A stretch of 34,467 bases of DNA, taken from assembly GCA_016280635.1 (NCBI GenBank), contig JAEEHC010000073.1, forward strand, positions 1 to 34,467. The letters run 5' to 3'. Position 1 is the stretch's first letter; every line of letters starts with the position of its first letter. Below, piece after piece: positions 17,270-26,569 of the stretch. The notes beneath the pieces are model-generated. The model saw only the letters and a program-made list of their open reading frames with translations, did no database searches and was not told the DNA's origin. This DNA comes from Erysipelotrichaceae bacterium (GTDB lineage Bacteria; Bacillota_I; Bacilli_A; Erysipelotrichales; Erysipelotrichaceae). Both the position numbers and the translations under genes were made by a program.

Positions 17270-19876
17270 CTATTTGACCAGGATCAGGGTCTGGTACTTT
17301 TCCGGAGTAACCGTACTGACTTCGCCTGACAGCTTGCCCAGGGTATCAAGATAGACGCTGTAGCCGGAGGCATCGACGCTTTCCGAGCAGCCGGTGCCGT
17401 TAGCGTGGATGACCAGGAAGTGCTGCGAGCCGCTGTCCAGTTCATAGTACATTCCCGCCCCGCTGTTAAGCAGGTGAACGGTAAGGCCGCCGCCCGGACC
17501 GCTCAGGGCCTTGACAGTCTGCTTGAAGGCGATCAGCTGGCGGTAATTCTCGTAGATGTCGAGGTTTCTGATCTTGAGGGCGTAGTTGAGCTCGTTGACG
17601 TCATCCGGCGACTTGTAGGAGTTGGAATCGCCCTTCTTGGTCCGTAAGAACTCCTCGCCCGCCAGCATGAAGGAAGTGCCCTTGGAAGTCAGCACGACGC
17701 TGTTAGCCAGCATGGCCATCTTCCGGATGGTATCCTGATCCTCAATGCCGGCCGCCTTGATGCGGTCGAAGAGGGTGTAGTTGTCATGGCAGGTGACGTA
17801 GTTGACGGTCTTGTAGGCATCATCAATGCTGTAGGAAGCGGAAGTGGTAAAGCCGTTAATGCCGTTAGTGATGGCGTTAAGATCCGGCTGGCTGTTGGCC
17901 GTACCGGTTACCCAGCCCAGTTCTTCCTTGCCGTGCAGGCCGCCCTTAATCAGGCCGTCGCGCATCTGGTCATTGAACTGGCCATAGCCGACGTACTTGT
18001 TGCCGTTGGACTGCTTGGCCTGCTGGTCTTCCGGCAGGGTGCTGCCCCCGCCGGTCCAGGGTTCACCATAGATGATGACGTTTTCGTTGATTGCCTTGGC
18101 GGCCTCAGCCACCAGGTTCATGGTCTCAAGGTCATGCAGACCCATTAAGTCAAAGCGGAAGCCGCCCAGCTTGTATTCCTCAAGCCAGAAGCAGACGCTG
18201 TCGATGATGAACTTGCGCATCATCGGCCGCTCGCTGGCCACCTCATTGCCGCAGCCGGAGCCGTTGGAATAGGAGCCGTCAGCCTTCAAACGGAAGAAGT
18301 AACCCGGCATCAGCACGTTGAAGTTGGAGGTGCCGGCGTCATTGACGTGGTTGTAGACGACATCCATGATCACGGTGATGCCGTTGCGGTTGAACTGACT
18401 GACGACTTCCTTGAACTCATTGATGCGCTTATAGCCGTCATAAGGGTCAGAACTGTACATGCCTTCCAGCACGTTGTAGTTGAGCGGGTTGTAGCCCCAG
18501 TTGAAGACATAGGAGGTTTCATCGTTAGCCTGATCGAAGATTGGCTGCAGCTGTACGGCATTGACGCCCAGCTCGCGGATGTGGTCAAAACCGGTGGTTA
18601 CCGTCTTGCCGTCCTCGCTGTAGGTCGTGCCTTCTTCCACTAAGCCCAGGTAGCGGCGGCGGTTGTTCTCATTGCCCTGCCAGGTATTGGAAGAGGTGAC
18701 GTCAGCGACGTGAGTCTCCCAGACCACTACCTTCGTGCGGTCAAAGGCCTGCTGGTTGAGATCTTCCCAGCCTTCCGGGCCGGTACGGGAGAAGTCGACG
18801 ACCATGCCTCTTAAGCCGCTGACGCCGGCACCCTTGGCATAGGGGTCAACGATCTCAGTTCCCTCAGGATGGGCGTGGTTGTAGACGACATAAGTGTAGT
18901 ACTTGCCCTGCTGGTCGCCTTCCAGCGTGTATTCAAAGACTCCACGGTCCTTTTTGGTCATGGTGTATTCCTGATGCTCGTCAGAGCCCTTTTCACCGGA
19001 AACGCTGACGGGCGTACCGTTATCGTAGATGCGCAGTCTGATCTCACTGGAAACCGGTGACCAGACCCGGAAGACGGTCTTGTTGCGCTCATAGATGGCG
19101 CCGAGCTTACCGTCATAATAGTACTGCTCATTGAAGGCGTCACTGGTATAAAGACCGGAGATGTCGATCGGGGCCTTCATGCTCTGGCCCGAGGCCCGGA
19201 AGGTTACTTCCAGGCTGTATTCACTGCCCAAGGCTGCCGGCTGAGCCAGCGTGTAGGGGAAGGTCTTCCGGCCGGCGCCCTTGTCGCTGACCAGCAGCTG
19301 GCCATCCTGATAGATGGCAATGGTCTCCACGGCATTGGTGCAGCTGATCACCACGGTCTTATCGTCACTGAAGCGGGCTGATATGATCTCATCGGTTATT
19401 ACCTTGTCAGCGTTGGCGTAGATGTGCTCATCACCGCCGGCCAGATAGACGTGGTACATGCTGTTGTCATCCTTCTTAAGGGCGCTCAGGTTAATGAAGC
19501 GGTCGGCATCGGTGCCGTCCTTGTCCCAGGCTCCCTTGGTCTTGACGATGATGCCCAGCTGGCCGTTGGCCACCCCGCCGAAGTGTGACAGCGGGTAGAT
19601 GGCGATGACGCCGTAGTCATCCTGGTAGTTGAAGTCATCTTCCAGACCGTCATCATTGCCGCTGGGGTCCCACAGCCACAGCGTCCAGCGGTCGTACTTG
19701 TTGTCATCGCGCTGGTAGTGAATGGCTACGGCATCCTCACCGAGAGCCGGAAGCTGTGTGGGATACTGCACGTCCCGGTCGGGATAGGGATTGGCCGGCT
19801 GTTTCTGACAGCCGACAACACCCGCCAGCATCACAAACGCCAGCAGGATAATCATTATCTTCCTTAGTGTTTTCAT
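17270..19876 (-). CDS. pulA: Secreted lipoprotein pullulanase, type I (GH13)
   Basis: An 868-aa alpha-1,6-debranching enzyme acting on pullulan, starch or glycogen fragments. Lipoprotein signal with lipobox GVVGC (Cys 23) places it on the cell surface. A CBM41-like starch-binding domain (about 50-155), a linker beta domain (160-240) and a CBM48-like domain (about 255-345) lead into the GH13 barrel. Type I signature FNWGYNPLNY (458-467; most members have D where this has N) is followed by region I DVVYNH (505-510), nucleophile D576 in GFRFDLMG, acid/base E605 in IYGEPW, and region IV CHDN (about 697-700). The start follows AGGAGG. It is bounded by terminators on both sides, so probably monocistronic; no catabolite operator was identified. 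Confidence 0.95.
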   Translation of the reverse strand: MKTLRKIMIILLAFVMLAGVVGCQKQPANPYPDRDVQYPTQLPALGEDAVAIHYQRDDNKYDRWTLWLWDPSGNDDGLEDDFNYQDDYGVIAIYPLSHFGGVANGQLGIIVKTKGAWDKDGTDADRFINLSALKKDDNSMYHVYLAGGDEHIYANADKVITDEIISARFSDDKTVVISCTNAVETIAIYQDGQLLVSDKGAGRKTFPYTLAQPAALGSEYSLEVTFRASGQSMKAPIDISGLYTSDAFNEQYYYDGKLGAIYERNKTVFRVWSPVSSEIRLRIYDNGTPVSVSGEKGSDEHQEYTMTKKDRGVFEYTLEGDQQGKYYTYVVYNHAHPEGTEIVDPYAKGAGVSGLRGMVVDFSRTGPEGWEDLNQQAFDRTKVVVWETHVADVTSSNTWQGNENNRRRYLGLVEEGTTYSEDGKTVTTGFDHIRELGVNAVQLQPIFDQANDETSYVFNWGYNPLNYNVLEGMYSSDPYDGYKRINEFKEVVSQFNRNGITVIMDVVYNHVNDAGTSNFNVLMPGYFFRLKADGSYSNGSGCGNEVASERPMMRKFIIDSVCFWLEEYKLGGFRFDLMGLHDLETMNLVAEAAKAINENVIIYGEPWTGGGSTLPEDQQAKQSNGNKYVGYGQFNDQMRDGLIKGGLHGKEELGWVTGTANSQPDLNAITNGINGFTTSASYSIDDAYKTVNYVTCHDNYTLFDRIKAAGIEDQDTIRKMAMLANSVVLTSKGTSFMLAGEEFLRTKKGDSNSYKSPDDVNELNYALKIRNLDIYENYRQLIAFKQTVKALSGPGGGLTVHLLNSGAGMYYELDSGSQHFLVIHANGTGCSESVDASGYSVYLDTLGKLSGEVSTVTPEKYQTLILVK

Positions 19877-19897: not shown

Positions 19898-19928
19898 AAA
19901 ATGTCAGCAGATTATCTACTGACATTTT
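19898..19928 (-). terminator. Terminator of the SDR/DUF1295 cassette
   Basis: AAAATGTCAG and CTGACATTTT form a 10-bp stem around an 11-nt loop that can pair partly (AGA/TCT). It lies 9 nt past the stop of the last gene and is followed on the minus strand by TAATTTC. The pullulanase ribosome binding site begins about 10 nt beyond it. Confidence 0.75.
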
Positions 19929-19936
19929 AGCACATT

Positions 19937-20539
19937 TTACATGCTCTCTAACTGTTTATGAATTCCCAGAACACCAATCAGGAAACTCAGCTGGGAGACG
20001 ATGTTGGTCGCCTGCGCCAGCCAGTGCATCGTGCTGGAATCATCAAACTTGGCGCCCAGATAGCCCATCGCCAGCATGCTTACAAAGGCGATGACGAACA
20101 TGACGGCGGCGCCCTTTCTATGCATCTTCAGACTCTTGATCATTAAGATCAGCTGGGTGCCGCCCAAACCCAGCGTCTGGGCAATGATGAAGGGCAGATT
20201 GCTGGCGAAGACAGGCGGGACAACGGCGAAGATGCCGCTGGAGCGCCACTTGGTTCCCAGTAAGGACAGAAATACCAGCAGAAAGCCGGGAGCCTGCATC
20301 GGGAAGAAGGCATCGTTCATCAGCGTAAAGTCGCAGATGCCCAGGGCGTAAAGGATCTTCCAGGTCGCCTTGTAGATGCCGCCGATCAGAACCATGATCG
20401 AACCGGAGGCCAGTAAGGCGAAGCGGCCCTTGGAGAGAATGTCATAGAGATCTCTCTGCAGGATGACGGCAGAAATGAAGAACAGGATGACCGGAATGAA
20501 ATCGACGATGGCCATCACCAGGCTGATGTTGTTTTCCAT
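19937..20539 (-). CDS. Unknown 200-aa integral membrane protein
   Basis: A 200-aa protein with about six hydrophobic segments (roughly 8-27, 40-66, 78-97, 102-130, 144-164 and 172-194) and no catalytic motif I can name. I do not recognise the family. Its ATG overlaps the stop of the upstream DUF1295-like gene by one base (TAATG), so it is translationally coupled to it and third in the cassette. Coupling to a membrane reductase and an SDR suggests a part in the same lipid or steroid conversion, or in substrate transport (inference). Terminator at 19898-19928. Confidence 0.8.
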   Translation of the reverse strand: MENNISLVMAIVDFIPVILFFISAVILQRDLYDILSKGRFALLASGSIMVLIGGIYKATWKILYALGICDFTLMNDAFFPMQAPGFLLVFLSLLGTKWRSSGIFAVVPPVFASNLPFIIAQTLGLGGTQLILMIKSLKMHRKGAAVMFVIAFVSMLAMGYLGAKFDDSSTMHWLAQATNIVSQLSFLIGVLGIHKQLESM

Positions 20540-21375
20540 TACTTCTTGTTTCTTTCTACCTTATTAAGGTGATAAAGGGGGATCAGCGGGAAGAGGATCG
20601 GCGTCCTGTCAGCATAGGCAACATACTGCGGATCATCCCCGTAATTCTTCTCATGTCTCTTTTCCAGTCTCTGAGCGCCGGAGATCATGACGCCGACGAT
20701 CAGCACATAGCCGATGGCGACGATGATCCACTGCTTGCCGGAAACCGCGCCGATGCCGCTAATGACTACGCCGGTCCAGAACAGAATCTCACTGAAGTAG
20801 TTCGGGCATCTGACAATCTTGTAGAGGCCGATGTCGCAGAAGCGGTGCGGGTTGGCCTTCTTGGCCGCCGATTTCTGACTGTCAGCCAGAGCCTCGCCGG
20901 CTACGCCTAAGGCCATGATGATCACGCCGATAACCAGGCTGCTGTTCAGCCGGTCACCGTTGACCAGCCGATAGGTAAAGGCGGAAGTCTGGGCGGCATA
21001 CATGGCCGCACAGTAGATCCACATGAAGGCGGAGACGAAGATCGGCACTTTCTTGGTAGCACCGGTGGAGGCCAGCGTCTTGCGGTAGTTGGCGTTCCTG
21101 GTTTCTCTGATGAACAGGTAGGCGCCTAAGCGGAAACCGTAAACTATCATCAGTACGCAGCCGAGCATCGTGACGATGTTGGCGCCATTAATGATGCCCT
21201 CAACCAATAACAGGATGCCGATGCCCATGACCGCAAAGCCATAGCCGACGGACATGAACCAGACCAGCTGCTTGAAGCCGATGGAACATAAGACCAGAGC
21301 GGCAATGAAGCAGAATAATAACAGCTTGGGAAAGACCGGAGTCGGAGCTGCGGCAATTAACATGGTGTTTTCCAT
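20539..21375 (-). CDS. DUF1295-like, steroid 5-alpha-reductase-fold membrane protein
   Basis: A 278-aa polytopic protein with about seven membrane segments. The C-terminal third has the hallmark of the DUF1295/steroid 5-alpha-reductase superfamily: GLYKIVRCPNYFSEILFW (R-x-PNYF-x-E, the NADPH-binding region) and, near the end, EKRHEKNYGDDPQYVAY. The related isoprenylcysteine methyltransferase fold is an alternative, but the PNYFSE motif favours the reductase group. Members reduce C=C bonds next to a carbonyl in steroids or lipids using NADPH (family knowledge); the substrate here is unknown. Start at 21375 with GGGGG 10 nt upstream; an in-frame ATG at 21363 is possible. It begins 3 nt after the SDR gene stop and overlaps the next gene by one base. 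Confidence 0.8.
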   Translation of the reverse strand: MENTMLIAAAPTPVFPKLLLFCFIAALVLCSIGFKQLVWFMSVGYGFAVMGIGILLLVEGIINGANIVTMLGCVLMIVYGFRLGAYLFIRETRNANYRKTLASTGATKKVPIFVSAFMWIYCAAMYAAQTSAFTYRLVNGDRLNSSLVIGVIIMALGVAGEALADSQKSAAKKANPHRFCDIGLYKIVRCPNYFSEILFWTGVVISGIGAVSGKQWIIVAIGYVLIVGVMISGAQRLEKRHEKNYGDDPQYVAYADRTPILFPLIPLYHLNKVERNKK

Positions 21376-21378
21376 GGC

Positions 21379-22239
21379 TTACTTACCCCCGAAATATTCC
21401 TTTACATACTGGGCAAAGCTGGCCTCACCGGTTTCATCCTTGCCGACCAGATCATGAGTCAGCGTCCACCTGGAGAACAGGATGATGTCATGCTTGCCTT
21501 CCTTCTTGATCTTGGGCAGGTTGGCCAGAACGCCAAACAGCCAGGCCGGGGCGTACTTGATCCTGGTCGGCTTGCCGGCGGCGTCAAAGCACAGCTTGGC
21601 CATCTCTTCATAGGTATAAGTCTCCTTGCCGCCGACTTCATAGAGAGCCTTCTGATCATTCATGTGTTCGACGATGAAGGCAGCGAAGTCCGGGCAGTCA
21701 ACGACATTGGCCTTAACGTGGCCATAGCCCTTCAATAACTGCATCTCACCCTTGTCAACATAGGGCTTGAAGACTTTGGCGATGTCATAGAAGTAGCCGG
21801 TCGGACGGTAGATGACGTAGTTCATCTCACCCTTGCGCAGCTCCTCTTCGACCATAAACTTGGCGTGCAGCATCGGCACCTTTTCGGCACCCGGCTGATC
21901 GCAGGCAATGACGGAGATGTAGTCAAAGGTCTTGACGCCGGCTCTGACAGCTTCCTTATAGAGATTCATGTTTCCCTGATAGTCAATGTCATAAGCGGTG
22001 AAGCGGGTAGACGAGGTGGTCAGACCCATGGTGGTGATGACGATGTCAGCACCCTCACACAGCCCTTCCAGGCTCTTGGGATCGGTAGCGTCGATGGCAG
22101 CGAAGCGGTATTTGCCCTTCAGTCCTTCGATCTCCCTTTCCTTAAGGTCAGCAGCCACGACTTCGTGCTTTGCTTCAACGAGTTTCTTCAGGATCTCGGC
22201 ACCCAGATTGCCGAAAGCTCCAGCCAGAACAACTTTCAT
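21379..22239 (-). CDS. Atypical SDR NAD(P)-binding protein
   Basis: A 286-aa Rossmann-fold protein. The nucleotide-binding loop GAFGNLG (residues 7-13) fits G-x-x-G-x-x-G of extended/atypical SDRs (NmrA-like), and Asp near residue 36 follows strand 2. The canonical YxxxK catalytic pair is not evident at the expected place, so it may be an atypical oxidoreductase or a non-catalytic dinucleotide sensor. First gene of the three-gene cassette, with AGGAGG upstream of the ATG and a strong promoter at 22315-22344. The context with a DUF1295-like reductase points to redox processing of a lipid-like substrate (inference). Confidence 0.83.
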   Translation of the reverse strand: MKVVLAGAFGNLGAEILKKLVEAKHEVVAADLKEREIEGLKGKYRFAAIDATDPKSLEGLCEGADIVITTMGLTTSSTRFTAYDIDYQGNMNLYKEAVRAGVKTFDYISVIACDQPGAEKVPMLHAKFMVEEELRKGEMNYVIYRPTGYFYDIAKVFKPYVDKGEMQLLKGYGHVKANVVDCPDFAAFIVEHMNDQKALYEVGGKETYTYEEMAKLCFDAAGKPTRIKYAPAWLFGVLANLPKIKKEGKHDIILFSRWTLTHDLVGKDETGEASFAQYVKEYFGGK

Positions 22240-22272
22240 ATCATATCCTCCTGATAATTAATAATGGTTGGG

Positions 22273-22304
22273 ACAGCGGAATCAACAGAAAAACCGTCCG
22301 CTGT
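22273..22304 (-). repeat. Inverted repeat in the SDR operon leader
   Basis: Perfect 8-bp arms ACAGCGGA and TCCGCTGT separated by 16 nt, lying just downstream of the -10 of the SDR operon promoter. It may be an operator for a dimeric repressor or a leader hairpin. No regulator gene is adjacent. Confidence 0.55.
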
Positions 22305-22314
22305 ATACAATTTG

Positions 22315-22344
22315 ATTTTAGCTTTTTCCCGTCTTGTTTGTCAA
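22315..22344 (-). promoter_or_regulatory. Promoter of the SDR/DUF1295 cassette
   Basis: Minus strand: -35 TTGACA (22339-22344, perfect consensus), 18-nt spacer, -10 TAAAAT (22315-22320). The leader is about 70 nt and contains the inverted repeat at 22273-22304. Confidence 0.75.
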
Positions 22345-22374: not shown

Positions 22375-22403
22375 TTGGGAAAAACGGCTTTTTAGGCTAT
22401 AAT
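22375..22403 (+). promoter_or_regulatory. Promoter of lysS
   Basis: -35 TTGGGA (22375-22380), 17-nt spacer, -10 TATAAT (22398-22403). The leader is under 30 nt, so there is no room for a T-box. Confidence 0.75.
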
Positions 22404-22437: not shown

Positions 22438-23928
22438 ATGGAACAGAACCTTAACGATCAGCAGTTAGCCAGAAGAGAGAAGCTCAGACAGTTGGAAGAA
22501 CTGGGCATTGAGCCTTTCGGCAACGCGTTCAAAGTAACATATCACGCCGCCCAACTGCGTGAACAGTACGGCGAAAACAGCAAGGAAGAACTGGAAGAAC
22601 TGAACCTGCAGGTCAGTGTGGCCGGAAGGATCATGTCCAAGAGAAGAATGGGCAAGCTCGGCTTCATGCACATTCAGGACAAGAGCGGCCAGATCCAGAT
22701 CGTCGTCAACAAGGGCGTAGTCGGTGAAGATGTCTATGAGATCTTCAAGATCAATGACGTCGGCGACATCGTCGGCATTGAAGGCCAGCTGGTCAAGACC
22801 GATTCCGGCGAACTGTCCGTCAAGGCCCTGAAGTATACCCACCTTTCCAAGTCCCTCAGACCGCTTCCCGAGAAGTTCCATGGCCTGACCGACATTGAGG
22901 AGCGCTACAGAAGAAGATATGTCGACCTGATCATGAATCAGGATTCCAAGCAGATTGCCTTCCTTCGCCCGGCCATCCTGCGCTGCATCCGCAACTACAT
23001 GGACCGCCAGGGCTATACCGAAGTTGAGACTCCGGTACTGACAACGCTATTGACCGGCGCTTCTGCCAGGCCGTTCATCACCCATCACAATGCCCAGGAT
23101 CTGGACATGTATCTGCGCATTGCCCTGGAGCTGCCCTTAAAGAGGCTGCTGGTCGGCGGCATGGAAGCGGTCTATGAGATCGGCCGTACCTTCCGCAACG
23201 AAGGCATGGACAAGATGCACAACCCGGAATTCACCATGATGGAAGCCTATCTGGCCTACTCCAACCTGGAAGGCATGATGGAACTGACCGAAGGTCTGTT
23301 CACCACCATTGGCCGGGAAGTCTTCAACAAGCTGGAATACAACTATGAAGGCAACCTTATTTCCCTGGCCGGACCCTGGAAGAGAATCTCGATGGTCGAC
23401 GCCATCAAGGAGAAATGCGGTGTTGACTTCAATGAGCACTATACCCTGGAACAGGCCAAGGCGCTGGCCAAGGAACATCAGGTCGAAGTGGAATCCCACT
23501 TTACCGTCGGTCACATCATCAACGCCTTCTTTGAGAAATTCGTTGAAGAGACGCTCATCCAGCCGACCTTCCTGTATGGCCACCCCATTGAGATCTCCCC
23601 GCTGACCCGTTCCCGCAAGGACGATCCGCGCTTCGTCGAGCGCTTTGAGCTGTTCATCGGCGGCCACGAATTCTGCAACGCCTATACCGAACTCAATGAC
23701 CCGATTGACCAGCTGCAGCGCTTTGAAGCCCAGCTGGCGGAGAAAAAGGCCGGCAATGACGAGGCCAGCGACATCGACATGGACTTCGTTGAAGCTCTGG
23801 AATACGGCATGCCTCCGGCCGGCGGCATCGGATACGGCATTGACCGGCTGGTGATGCTGTTTACGGAGAGCGAGACCATCAGAGACGTTCTGCTCTTCCC
23901 GACCATGAAAAGCAGAAATAGCGACTAA
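22438..23928 (+). CDS. lysS: Lysyl-tRNA synthetase, class II
   Basis: A 496-aa LysRS. The N-terminal OB-fold anticodon-binding domain (about 55-150) is followed by the class II catalytic core with motif 1 around YTEVETPVL, motif 2 [15 protein letters not shown] and motif 3 [12 protein letters not shown]. It ends [12 protein letters not shown], the usual C-terminus of the family. The start follows GAGAGGAG; in-frame codons upstream overlap the promoter. The terminator at 24006-24029 follows. The 3' end is where the AT-rich accessory segment begins, and a diverged copy of the last 11 codons or so is found at 27494-27525. Confidence 0.97.
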
Positions 23929-24589: not shown

Positions 24590-24628
24590 TCTTATCACGG
24601 GATCTATGCCTTTACATAATTGGAATTA

Positions 24629-24645
24629 CCAACTACATCGTTGAG
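24629..24645 (-). repeat. Right terminal inverted repeat
   Basis: Exact reverse complement of 24054-24070. It lies 65 nt upstream of the Sel1-repeat gene, so the element end contributes to that gene's upstream region. Confidence 0.85.
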
Positions 24646-24709
24646 AATGGCGGTTTTTTTTGCACTTTATTCTGGTGTACTATTTATTTGTAGAGAAAAG
24701 GAGGTCGAC

Positions 24710-26569
24710 ATGAATAAGATTGATGATTTTGAATATGGACAATTTGTTATGTATGACGGAAAAGTCATGCTTGTTTATGGCGTTCCCTATGAAGAGGAAG
24801 ATGAAGGATATCCAGATCAGATTCAGCTGACCGAAGAAAAAAGCCCACGATTATATGACAAAAAGGAAGAAACGGAATGTACGAAATGCATTTTAGCTCC
24901 TGTAAATGATGTCATTAAACTCTTAGCTGTAAAGGTCAGTGAAGATACCTTAAGATCATTTTTCCGGATCGACACTACTCCTTGGAAACTTTGTACAGAG
25001 AAGTTATACCCTATTGCGAAGGAATCAGGCAGTTTCATCTTATCAGAAGACGATGTTGAAACTTTTCTTTCACGTCTTGGCTCGATAGATCCTGTAGTCT
25101 ATGGTGAGTGGCAAACACAGTTTGTTTTCGGGGATCATGTCAAAACACAGAACGAGGATCCAAATCATTTCACCTTGAAAATGGTATGGAACTTAATGAG
25201 AGATGATTTTGAATGGTATGATGCGGAAGAAGATGAACCTGAATATATTCAAGCAATATGGGATTTCTATAAGCTGAATAAAGGTAAAGAACTGGATCAA
25301 ATCAACTTTCCGGATGAATATAAAAACACTGTAATTTCTGATATTTACTTGTCTTCCAAAGAAAATCCGATTTCTGATATGCAGAAGCAAACATATATCA
25401 AACTATTAAACGAACAGGTCACTGCTGGTGATCATTGGGCAATTCGGCATAAAGCCTATGCTTATTATGGTGGAAACAGTATTGTTCCGTGTGACTGGAA
25501 AAAAGCTGAAGAAACACTTCTGAAATTACATAATACTCAAACAGAAGATGCGAAATATGCTGCTAATTCACTTGGATACATTTATTACAGTGATCGTCTC
25601 GGAGAACCGGATTACGATAAAGCTTTTAGATATTTCTCAGAAGCCGCTGAGTATGGAATCATTGAAGCAACATATAAACTTGCCGATATGTACCGAAAAG
25701 GGCACGGCACGAAGAAACAGACTCAAAAAGCTTTTTCAACATACAAGAATCTTTACGAAAATGAATTTGAGAAGTTCAAAGATAAGCATACTGGCTGTAA
25801 GCTGGCAGATGTGGCATTAAGAATGGGTTACTGTTATGAAAACGGCGAAGGTATACAGTCGGATCTGTTTAAGGCTTTGGAATACTACCAGATAGCAAAC
25901 AATGCCATAGATGCACGAATTGCTGAACACAAGCATTTCGGAGATGAAACAGTAAAAAGAAACATTGATAATTCGATTCTGAGGATATCTGATAAGTTGG
26001 AAAATACCCTTCCCGATATTATTAATGAAAATGATTTTAACGGCATCAATTTAACTGGAAGAATGGTCTATCTTTTCATGTGTGTGGAAAAATTTTTGGT
26101 AACGATTTATCCAGAAAAAGACTGGACATTGGTAGCCGAAAAAATGTGGCCATGGACTGAAGATTATTGGGATAAAGGATGGGACAGATATTCTGTCGTT
26201 GTTCCAGAATTCTTGCTTGAATATCCATCATATGAAGAGACATCTGCACTTTCTTATGAAGGCAATATAACCAAAGAAGACTATAATACGCTGATTATGC
26301 TATATTCTGATATAACCTCAGGCGATGGAAAACAAGATATAGACATTATTCTTATGGCTCCCATCGACTTTTGCAACGAATGCGAAGGAACATCTGCATC
26401 GGAAGCACTAAAAAGTACCATGCCTATCTTTAATACTGTTGCTGAAGTATTTAGAAAAAATCATTTACGATTACCCGATATACAATCGGTAAAGGATTTT
26501 TCGATAGAAGAAGCGGGAGCATGGGGTGAATCGAAAGACACAAGAAATTATTCCATCATCCTAGCATAA
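24710..26569 (+). CDS. Sel1/TPR-repeat protein with unassigned C-terminal domain
   Basis: A 619-aa acidic cytoplasmic protein (no signal peptide or membrane segment). Residues 1-240 form an uncharacterised N-terminal region. Residues about 260-410 contain Sel1/TPR-like helical repeats (ANSLGYIYYSDRLGEPDYDKA, ATYKLADMYRKGHGTKKQTQKA, ALRMGYCYENGEGIQSDLFKA). Residues about 445-619 are a separate domain rich in aromatics (LTGRMVYLFMCVEKFL, WPWTEDYWDKGWDRYS, PEFLLEYPSYEET). This domain reminds me of orphan immunity-type proteins of Bacillota toxin loci, but I cannot name its family. The start follows AAAAGGAGG; an earlier in-frame ATG overlaps the IS end. AT-rich composition unlike lysS indicates acquisition. 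Sel1 repeats usually mediate protein contacts. Function unknown. Confidence 0.8.
   Translation: MNKIDDFEYGQFVMYDGKVMLVYGVPYEEEDEGYPDQIQLTEEKSPRLYDKKEETECTKCILAPVNDVIKLLAVKVSEDTLRSFFRIDTTPWKLCTEKLYPIAKESGSFILSEDDVETFLSRLGSIDPVVYGEWQTQFVFGDHVKTQNEDPNHFTLKMVWNLMRDDFEWYDAEEDEPEYIQAIWDFYKLNKGKELDQINFPDEYKNTVISDIYLSSKENPISDMQKQTYIKLLNEQVTAGDHWAIRHKAYAYYGGNSIVPCDWKKAEETLLKLHNTQTEDAKYAANSLGYIYYSDRLGEPDYDKAFRYFSEAAEYGIIEATYKLADMYRKGHGTKKQTQKAFSTYKNLYENEFEKFKDKHTGCKLADVALRMGYCYENGEGIQSDLFKALEYYQIANNAIDARIAEHKHFGDETVKRNIDNSILRISDKLENTLPDIINENDFNGINLTGRMVYLFMCVEKFLVTIYPEKDWTLVAEKMWPWTEDYWDKGWDRYSVVVPEFLLEYPSYEETSALSYEGNITKEDYNTLIMLYSDITSGDGKQDIDIILMAPIDFCNECEGTSASEALKSTMPIFNTVAEVFRKNHLRLPDIQSVKDFSIEEAGAWGESKDTRNYSIILA

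Follow-up and report, generated by a model that had tools for sequence, protein, structure and literature searches.

The stretch analysed here, called the window below, comprises 34,467 nt of an Erysipelotrichaceae bacterium genome (GenBank assembly GCA_016280635.1, contig JAEEHC010000073.1, positions 1 to 34,467). We describe in it a reverse-strand cassette of three genes, encoding a protein of short-chain dehydrogenase/reductase type (SDR), a putative membrane reductase (RED) and a putative six-helix membrane protein (TM). The features of the cassette, in the direction of transcription, are as follows.

22315..22344, reverse strand: sigma-70-type promoter TTGACA-18-TAAAAT, a consensus match only (11 of 12 bases)
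21379..22239, reverse strand: SDR, open reading frame (ORF) of 286 aa; predicted atypical NAD(P)-binding SDR (NmrA/NAD_binding_10) without the catalytic Tyr
20539..21375, reverse strand: RED, ORF of 278 aa; predicted polytopic membrane reductase of a DUF1295 (PF06966) subfamily with the SRD5A/sterol-reductase fold
19937..20539, reverse strand: TM, ORF of 200 aa; predicted six-helix membrane protein and probable RED partner, without a known family
19898..19928, reverse strand: intrinsic-terminator-like hairpin 3′ of TM and ahead of a pullulanase-like gene; 14 bp, −16.8 kcal/mol

SDR and RED are separated by 3 nt (21376–21378), RED and TM overlap by 1 nt, and the sequence AGGAGG stands directly 5′ of the SDR start. 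The hairpin was missed by the automated terminator scan and was recovered by folding positions 19936–19886 of the reverse strand (z-score −4.4, with none of 200 shuffled sequences folding as well); its stem is followed directly by the U-rich tail UUUUUAAUUU. The tight packing between a promoter and a terminator, as described in the initial annotation of this DNA, is thus confirmed.

The three genes form a genuine unit, beyond chance, since tens of genomes show them in this order again. When species genomes were scanned, at least 597 candidate stretches were obtained, of which the best 80 were taken as RED loci; they represent only the nearest relatives, in collections where metagenome-assembled genomes (MAGs) of ruminants abound, and the locus counts describe that sample. 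Co-occurrence of the three genes had been proposed as a check in the initial annotation: among the 80 loci, the neighbours of RED include SDR (57 loci), TM (47), a gene designated c3 (32), a TetR regulator (29) and a gene designated c6 (20). When 98 related genomes were searched, SDR was found in nine, each time abutting RED and TM; the adjacency of the trio is seen within both the genus and the family. The earlier term ‘cassette’ stands for the conserved trio, but it is incomplete: the trio forms the centre of a wider module that also includes TetR, c3 and c6.

The c3 proteins (∼310 aa, 75% mean identity) have a weak match to the Flavin_Reduct/flavin mononucleotide (FMN) split-barrel family. 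The c6 proteins (∼220 aa) match Fe_bilin_red in 11 of 18 members, with a best E-value of 3.4e-5, and the best-shown member scores 16.9 against PF05996, under the cut-off of 31. The best PDB match of c6 is a ferredoxin-dependent bilin reductase (E 0.0027), the alignment spans most of c6, and both Asp residues of the DLPxxxxD core are invariant. Judged from these similarities, c6 looks like a distant relative of the ferredoxin-dependent bilin reductases. The c6 family was seen in gut anaerobes, outside phototrophs (L079:9470-10120, L108:9473-10120 and the copy in the window's own genome).

In the genome to which the window belongs, c3 (G000:C51:8582-9511, E 1e-140) and c6 (G000:C18:20358-21002, E 4e-57) are both present, away from the trio. 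Among Erysipelotrichaceae relatives, c6 lies directly upstream of SDR in one genome (L184) and c3 lies directly upstream of SDR in another (L183). The window thus holds three of five co-inherited genes. The genes flanking c3 and c6 in the window's own genome offered no clue to a pathway.

Carriers belong to Bacillota, Spirochaetota and, in some cases, Actinomycetota. Most of the named carriers are genomes from the guts of ruminants and other herbivores, many of them from the rumen, along with some from chickens and digesters. A tree was built of 72 RED proteins together with ordinary DUF1295 proteins and SRD5A2, the placement of the latter being unreliable (branch length 10). The RED clade is separated from the ordinary DUF1295 proteins by a branch with support 100/100, and the SDR-linked REDs cluster within it (three label changes, against a mean of 22.7 for shuffled labels). 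Lachnospiraceae, Oscillospiraceae, Erysipelotrichaceae and Treponema are intermixed in this tree, a pattern suggesting that the cassette has been transferred from one lineage to another; caution is due, as many of the genomes are MAGs. One group of REDs, from genomes labelled Oscillospiraceae/Lachnospiraceae, has no SDR in the whole genome (L082, L084, L087, L090, L094, L096, L097, L100, L103, L109, L119 and L121), and a few of its members retain TetR and c3 next to RED.

The window's RED scores 101.4 bits against DUF1295 (PF06966, cut-off 20.4) and 24.3 bits against Steroid_dh (PF02544, cut-off 22.6). Both families match all 72 proteins of the RED set, ICMT and PEMT matching weakly in 13 and four of them, respectively. 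A profile search with RED finds PbSRD5A and SRD5A2 and no ICMT. The AlphaFold model of RED (pLDDT 93) aligns with PbSRD5A (7c83; Z 13.3, root-mean-square deviation 4.3, 207 aa), with a sterol C14 reductase (Z 12.7, 3.6, 216 aa) and with human SRD5A2 (7bw1; Z 12.3, 4.4, 205 aa), the first entry beyond the SRD5A/sterol reductase/ICMT fold group appearing at Z 7.8. The profile scores and the predicted structure place RED among the reductase-fold proteins of the SRD5A/sterol-reductase superfamily, as the initial annotation had done. Literature searches on DUF1295 function, OsrB and 5-alpha-reductase (5AR) in gut bacteria turned up nothing that matches this cassette directly.

For residue comparison we used an SRD5A2 reference sequence that was checked against the residue numbering of PMC7591894 and against the printed profile alignment. 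Six residues are invariant in all 72 REDs: Y79 (Y91 of SRD5A2), R82 (R94), D165 (D164), N192 (N193), E196 (E197) and W200 (W201). R171 of SRD5A2 is replaced conservatively by an equally invariant K172, while R236, likewise invariant, aligns one column away from R227. The NADPH-site set of SRD5A2 (D164, R171, N193, E197, W201 and R227) is therefore found in RED. The R-x-PNYF-x-E motif noted earlier is present as R-C-PNYF-S-E.

Two positions distinguish RED from its ordinary DUF1295 relatives: position 79 is Tyr in RED and Trp in the relatives, and position 42 is Ser in RED and Asp in the relatives. Because of the Trp at the position of Y79 in the ordinary DUF1295 cousins, the RED subfamily looks better suited than they are to polarise a carbonyl. 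The steroid signature QEY consists of Q56, E57 and Y91 of SRD5A2 and serves the steroid 3-oxo group (PMC7815742). Q56 and E57 align to S42 and V/I/L43 of RED, the alignment of transmembrane helix 2 being weak here. As the Gln-Glu part of the signature is apparently absent, we file RED as SRD5A-like and not as a steroid reductase.

SDR matches PF13460 (NAD_binding_10; 2.9e-15, 57 bits against a cut-off of 27.2) and PF05368 (NmrA; 6e-15, 56 against 27), and its N-terminal Rossmann part is also above the 3Beta_HSD cut-off (35.5 against 22 bits). The glycine motif (G7, G10 and G13) is invariant. At the YxxxK site, Lys127 is kept in 43 of 43 proteins and the catalytic Tyr is replaced by Met123, again in 43 of 43. 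The resulting M-L-x-A-K pattern is that of NDUFA9, an NADPH-binding subunit of complex I that is not known to work as a dehydrogenase by itself. With Met in place of Tyr and this NDUFA9-like pattern, SDR is not a hydroxysteroid dehydrogenase (HSDH) of the usual kind, and we rejected that assignment. From its sequence, SDR is best described as an atypical NmrA/NDUFA9-like NAD(P)-binding protein, which bears out the initial annotation's view of it as atypical.

Searches with TM against Pfam, NCBIfam and the PDB found no family, and its AlphaFold model (pLDDT 89) has six transmembrane helices, in agreement with the earlier description of a six-helix protein of no known family. Asp13, Pro16, Lys57, Lys61 and Asn179 are invariant, and there is no invariant His. 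The model resembles ACER3 (Z 10.4), Myomaker (9.0) and, likewise weakly, AdipoR1, all within the noise expected of helical bundles. A CREST-type hydrolase, with seven helices and a His metal site, was rejected on the six helices, the lack of an invariant His and the weak likeness in arrangement; YciB/IspA was rejected as well, as only four of 46 members match and the window's copy is under the cut-off. Shorter TM paralogues (∼160 aa) occur beside corrinoid genes and, in a second family, beside RED.

The module of some Oscillospirales is extended by a URO-D-type methyltransferase, a corrinoid protein, a pterin-binding methyltransferase, a RACo activator and DUF2284, a set that is found in three arrangements (L108; L159, L160 and L162; L161). 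There the full corrinoid set is joined to TetR-c3-SDR-RED-TM and a second, shorter TM paralogue adjoins (L108:3550-13819, L159:1971-11155, L160, L161 and L162). The presence of this set with the module points to a methylated, plausibly plant, compound in those genomes.

Around the cassette, lysS (22438-23928, forward strand) is divergent from it, and the promoter-like site of lysS (22375-22403, 10 of 12 bases) adjoins the cassette promoter. Downstream of the hairpin lies a gene that by eye encodes a lipoprotein-like pullulanase/GH13 protein (17270-19876, reverse strand); a protein of ∼640 aa with Sel1-type repeats, again by eye, is encoded at 24620-26569 (forward strand). Two further sets of candidate module members were discarded: the MATE-like transporter cluster c8, whose positions are scattered and unlinked, and the antisense ORF clusters 7, 22 and 27, which are artefacts of GC-rich reverse frames.

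We read the module as an accessory NADPH-dependent ene-reductase system of gut anaerobes, acting on a lipophilic compound of enone-like type that probably comes from the diet; we see about as much reason to accept this reading as to doubt it. RED would be a membrane-embedded NADPH-dependent ene-reductase built on the SRD5A-like plan, with NADPH held in its conserved C-terminal half. Tyr79 would polarise the substrate carbonyl, and the conjugated C=C of the substrate, which would be a lipophilic enone, enal or unsaturated lactam drawn from the membrane, would receive the hydride. SDR would be the soluble NAD(P)H-binding partner of RED; because the catalytic Tyr is absent, it would more probably be a cofactor partner, or a reductase related to the NmrA/isoflavone-reductase/quinone-reductase type, than an alcohol dehydrogenase. 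TM would be the six-helix membrane partner of RED and might serve in substrate entry, in holding the substrate or in a third catalytic step. The putative FMN split-barrel protein c3 and the bilin-reductase-like c6 would complete the module, under the TetR regulator in many genomes. The substrate would most likely be dietary and plant-derived, and its reduction may serve as an electron sink or as detoxification.

Several observations weigh against this reading. The acid that pairs with the Tyr in SRD5A enzymes seems to be missing in RED, and catalysis may thus differ. Where a RED locus had no linked SDR, SDR was missing from the whole genome in 17 of 17 genomes tested. RED therefore does not strictly need SDR and is usable without it in some lineages; SDR seems tied to RED. 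The habitat bias is partly due to the catalogues that make up the collection. Corrinoid proteins of the type seen in Oscillospirales are absent from the Erysipelotrichaceae carriers, the window's own genome included, so that demethylation would be an accessory and the corrinoid set does not define the substrate; an O-demethylase as a core part of the module was rejected on this ground. What is established comprises the three genes, the conservation of the trio as a unit, the fold class, the invariant residues and the occurrence of c3 and c6 in the same genome, while the type of reaction, the roles of the partners and the class of substrate are what we infer.

The initial annotation had gone on from the fold to a possible substrate, a host steroid or an endogenous lipid, and had pointed to bile acids and steroid hormones as targets of such reductases, often together with HSDHs of SDR type. 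In its steroid form this reading makes RED a steroid or bile-acid 5-reductase and SDR its HSDH, as in the Bacteroidota cluster of 5AR, 5-beta-reductase (5BR) and 3betaHSDH. The fold and NADPH site shared with SRD5A, together with the above-threshold Steroid_dh and 3Beta_HSD scores, speak for it, as does the Bacteroidota 5AR, which resembles SRD5A1 and clusters with 3betaHSDH (PMC10382948). This step is not supported, given the apparent replacement of Gln-Glu (where the alignment is weak), the many carriers from the rumen, which lies upstream of bile, and a module that, with its FMN split barrel, its bilin-reductase relative and, in some Oscillospirales, its full corrinoid set, is unlike that cluster. 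Nor is SDR as an HSDH partner, given its invariant Met; no HSDH, bai gene or 5BR of old yellow enzyme (OYE) type was seen among the recurrent neighbours, and 5-alpha-reduction is known from other enzymes, in Firmicutes from the bile-acid 5-alpha-reductases BaiP/BaiJ, which are flavoproteins (PMC9645264), and in Bacteroidota from the 5AR (PMC10382948). A steroid substrate for RED is not supported by this evidence and appears to us quite unlikely. By analogy with DHRSX-SRD5A3, the genes could instead saturate an isoprenoid: SDR would turn an allylic alcohol, either polyprenol or phytol from the diet, into the enal, RED would reduce the alpha double bond of the enal, and SDR would restore the alcohol. 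RED is embedded in the membrane and has retained the Tyr, and the guts of herbivores contain abundant phytol derived from chlorophyll, which is hydrogenated in the rumen. Although a pair of an SDR and an SRD5A-type reductase does exactly this in dolichol synthesis (PMC11607601), we find the scheme rather unlikely here: SDR has lost the Tyr used by alcohol/aldehyde SDRs and is missing from many RED genomes, c3 and c6 would have no role, and the patchy distribution (nine of 98 relatives) is unlike that of an essential lipid carrier.

A third explanation starts from c6 and takes the module for a linear-tetrapyrrole reductase acting on bile pigments or chlorophyll catabolites, with SDR of the BLVRB/ChuY fold class and RED reducing unsaturated lactam rings. 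The Fe_bilin_red and PDB matches of c6 and its conserved Asp pair fit this, SRD5A2 reduces the unsaturated lactam of finasteride (PMC7591894), and the known enzymes BilR and BilV go no further than urobilinogen (PMC13252198). It is nonetheless very unlikely in our judgement, with c6 under its Pfam cut-off and linked in only 20 of the 80 loci, RED-TM genomes of the second family without c6, no heme- or bilin-related neighbour seen, and the rumen, home of many carriers, receiving no bilirubin. That c3, SDR, RED, TM and c6 might form a dedicated anaerobic pathway hydrogenating a linear tetrapyrrole, or some other pigment of plant or host, with c6 and RED acting on the same molecule, is likewise very improbable; if true, examples would be the conversion of urobilinogen to stercobilinogen or, in herbivores, the reduction of catabolites of chlorophyll. 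Least probable by far is that RED is an ICMT/PEMT-type methyltransferase acting on a phospholipid or prenyl compound. The two share a common fold (ICMT 5v7p: Z 11.8, root-mean-square deviation 3.7, 173 aa), the first match in a single-sequence PDB search is ICMT 4a2n (4e-4), and some RED copies lie near corrinoid methyltransferases. Against this, the structural alignment starts only at residue 44-54, leaving out the N-terminal part, RED scores 13.6 bits against ICMT (cut-off 24) and 18.6 against the NCBIfam isopcys_mtase (cut-off 160), and Steroid_dh matches throughout the RED set; on these scores and the profile search we rejected the assignment. RED thus showed no firm grouping with methyltransferases and keeps the NADPH-site residues, the two points the initial annotation had named as decisive for its reading.

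What is known of SRD5A-type reductases in gut bacteria mainly concerns bile acids and steroids. RED represents a distinct and widespread subfamily, which occurs as a unit with the novel six-helix TM, an SDR without the Tyr, a flavin-reductase-like c3 and, in c6, an apparent distant bilin-reductase relative. Identifying the substrate of the module would add a new reductive pathway of the gut. The case also advises caution, as fold alone is not enough to annotate such genes as steroid or bile-acid reductases.

Compared with known systems, RED shares with the SRD5A enzymes (PbSRD5A, SRD5A2) the membrane fold, the NADPH-site residues and the catalytic Tyr. It differs from them in its low identity (∼14%), the apparent absence of Gln-Glu, the lack of a steroid context, and its pairing with an SDR without the Tyr and a new six-helix protein. 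The DUF1295 proteins are its best family match and have the same C-terminal PNYF motif, while RED forms a branch apart, with Tyr and not Trp at 79 and Ser and not Asp at 42. Relatedness of c6, which lies outside the window, to the ferredoxin-dependent bilin reductases is suggested by the DLPxxxxD core and by a profile alignment that covers most of its length; unlike them, it falls under the family cut-off, occurs in anaerobic gut bacteria and shares an operon with RED. The DHRSX-SRD5A3 pathway from polyprenol to dolichol likewise pairs an SDR with an SRD5A-type reductase, but DHRSX is a working alcohol dehydrogenase, whereas the SDR described here is without the Tyr and the module includes further redox proteins. 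In the Bacteroidota cluster of the isoallolithocholic acid pathway, which consists of 5AR, 3betaHSDH and a flavin reductase (PMC10382948), an SRD5A-like reductase also adjoins an SDR in gut bacteria; the module described here differs in its phyla, its type of SDR, the lack of an OYE-type 5BR and the additional TM, c3 and c6.

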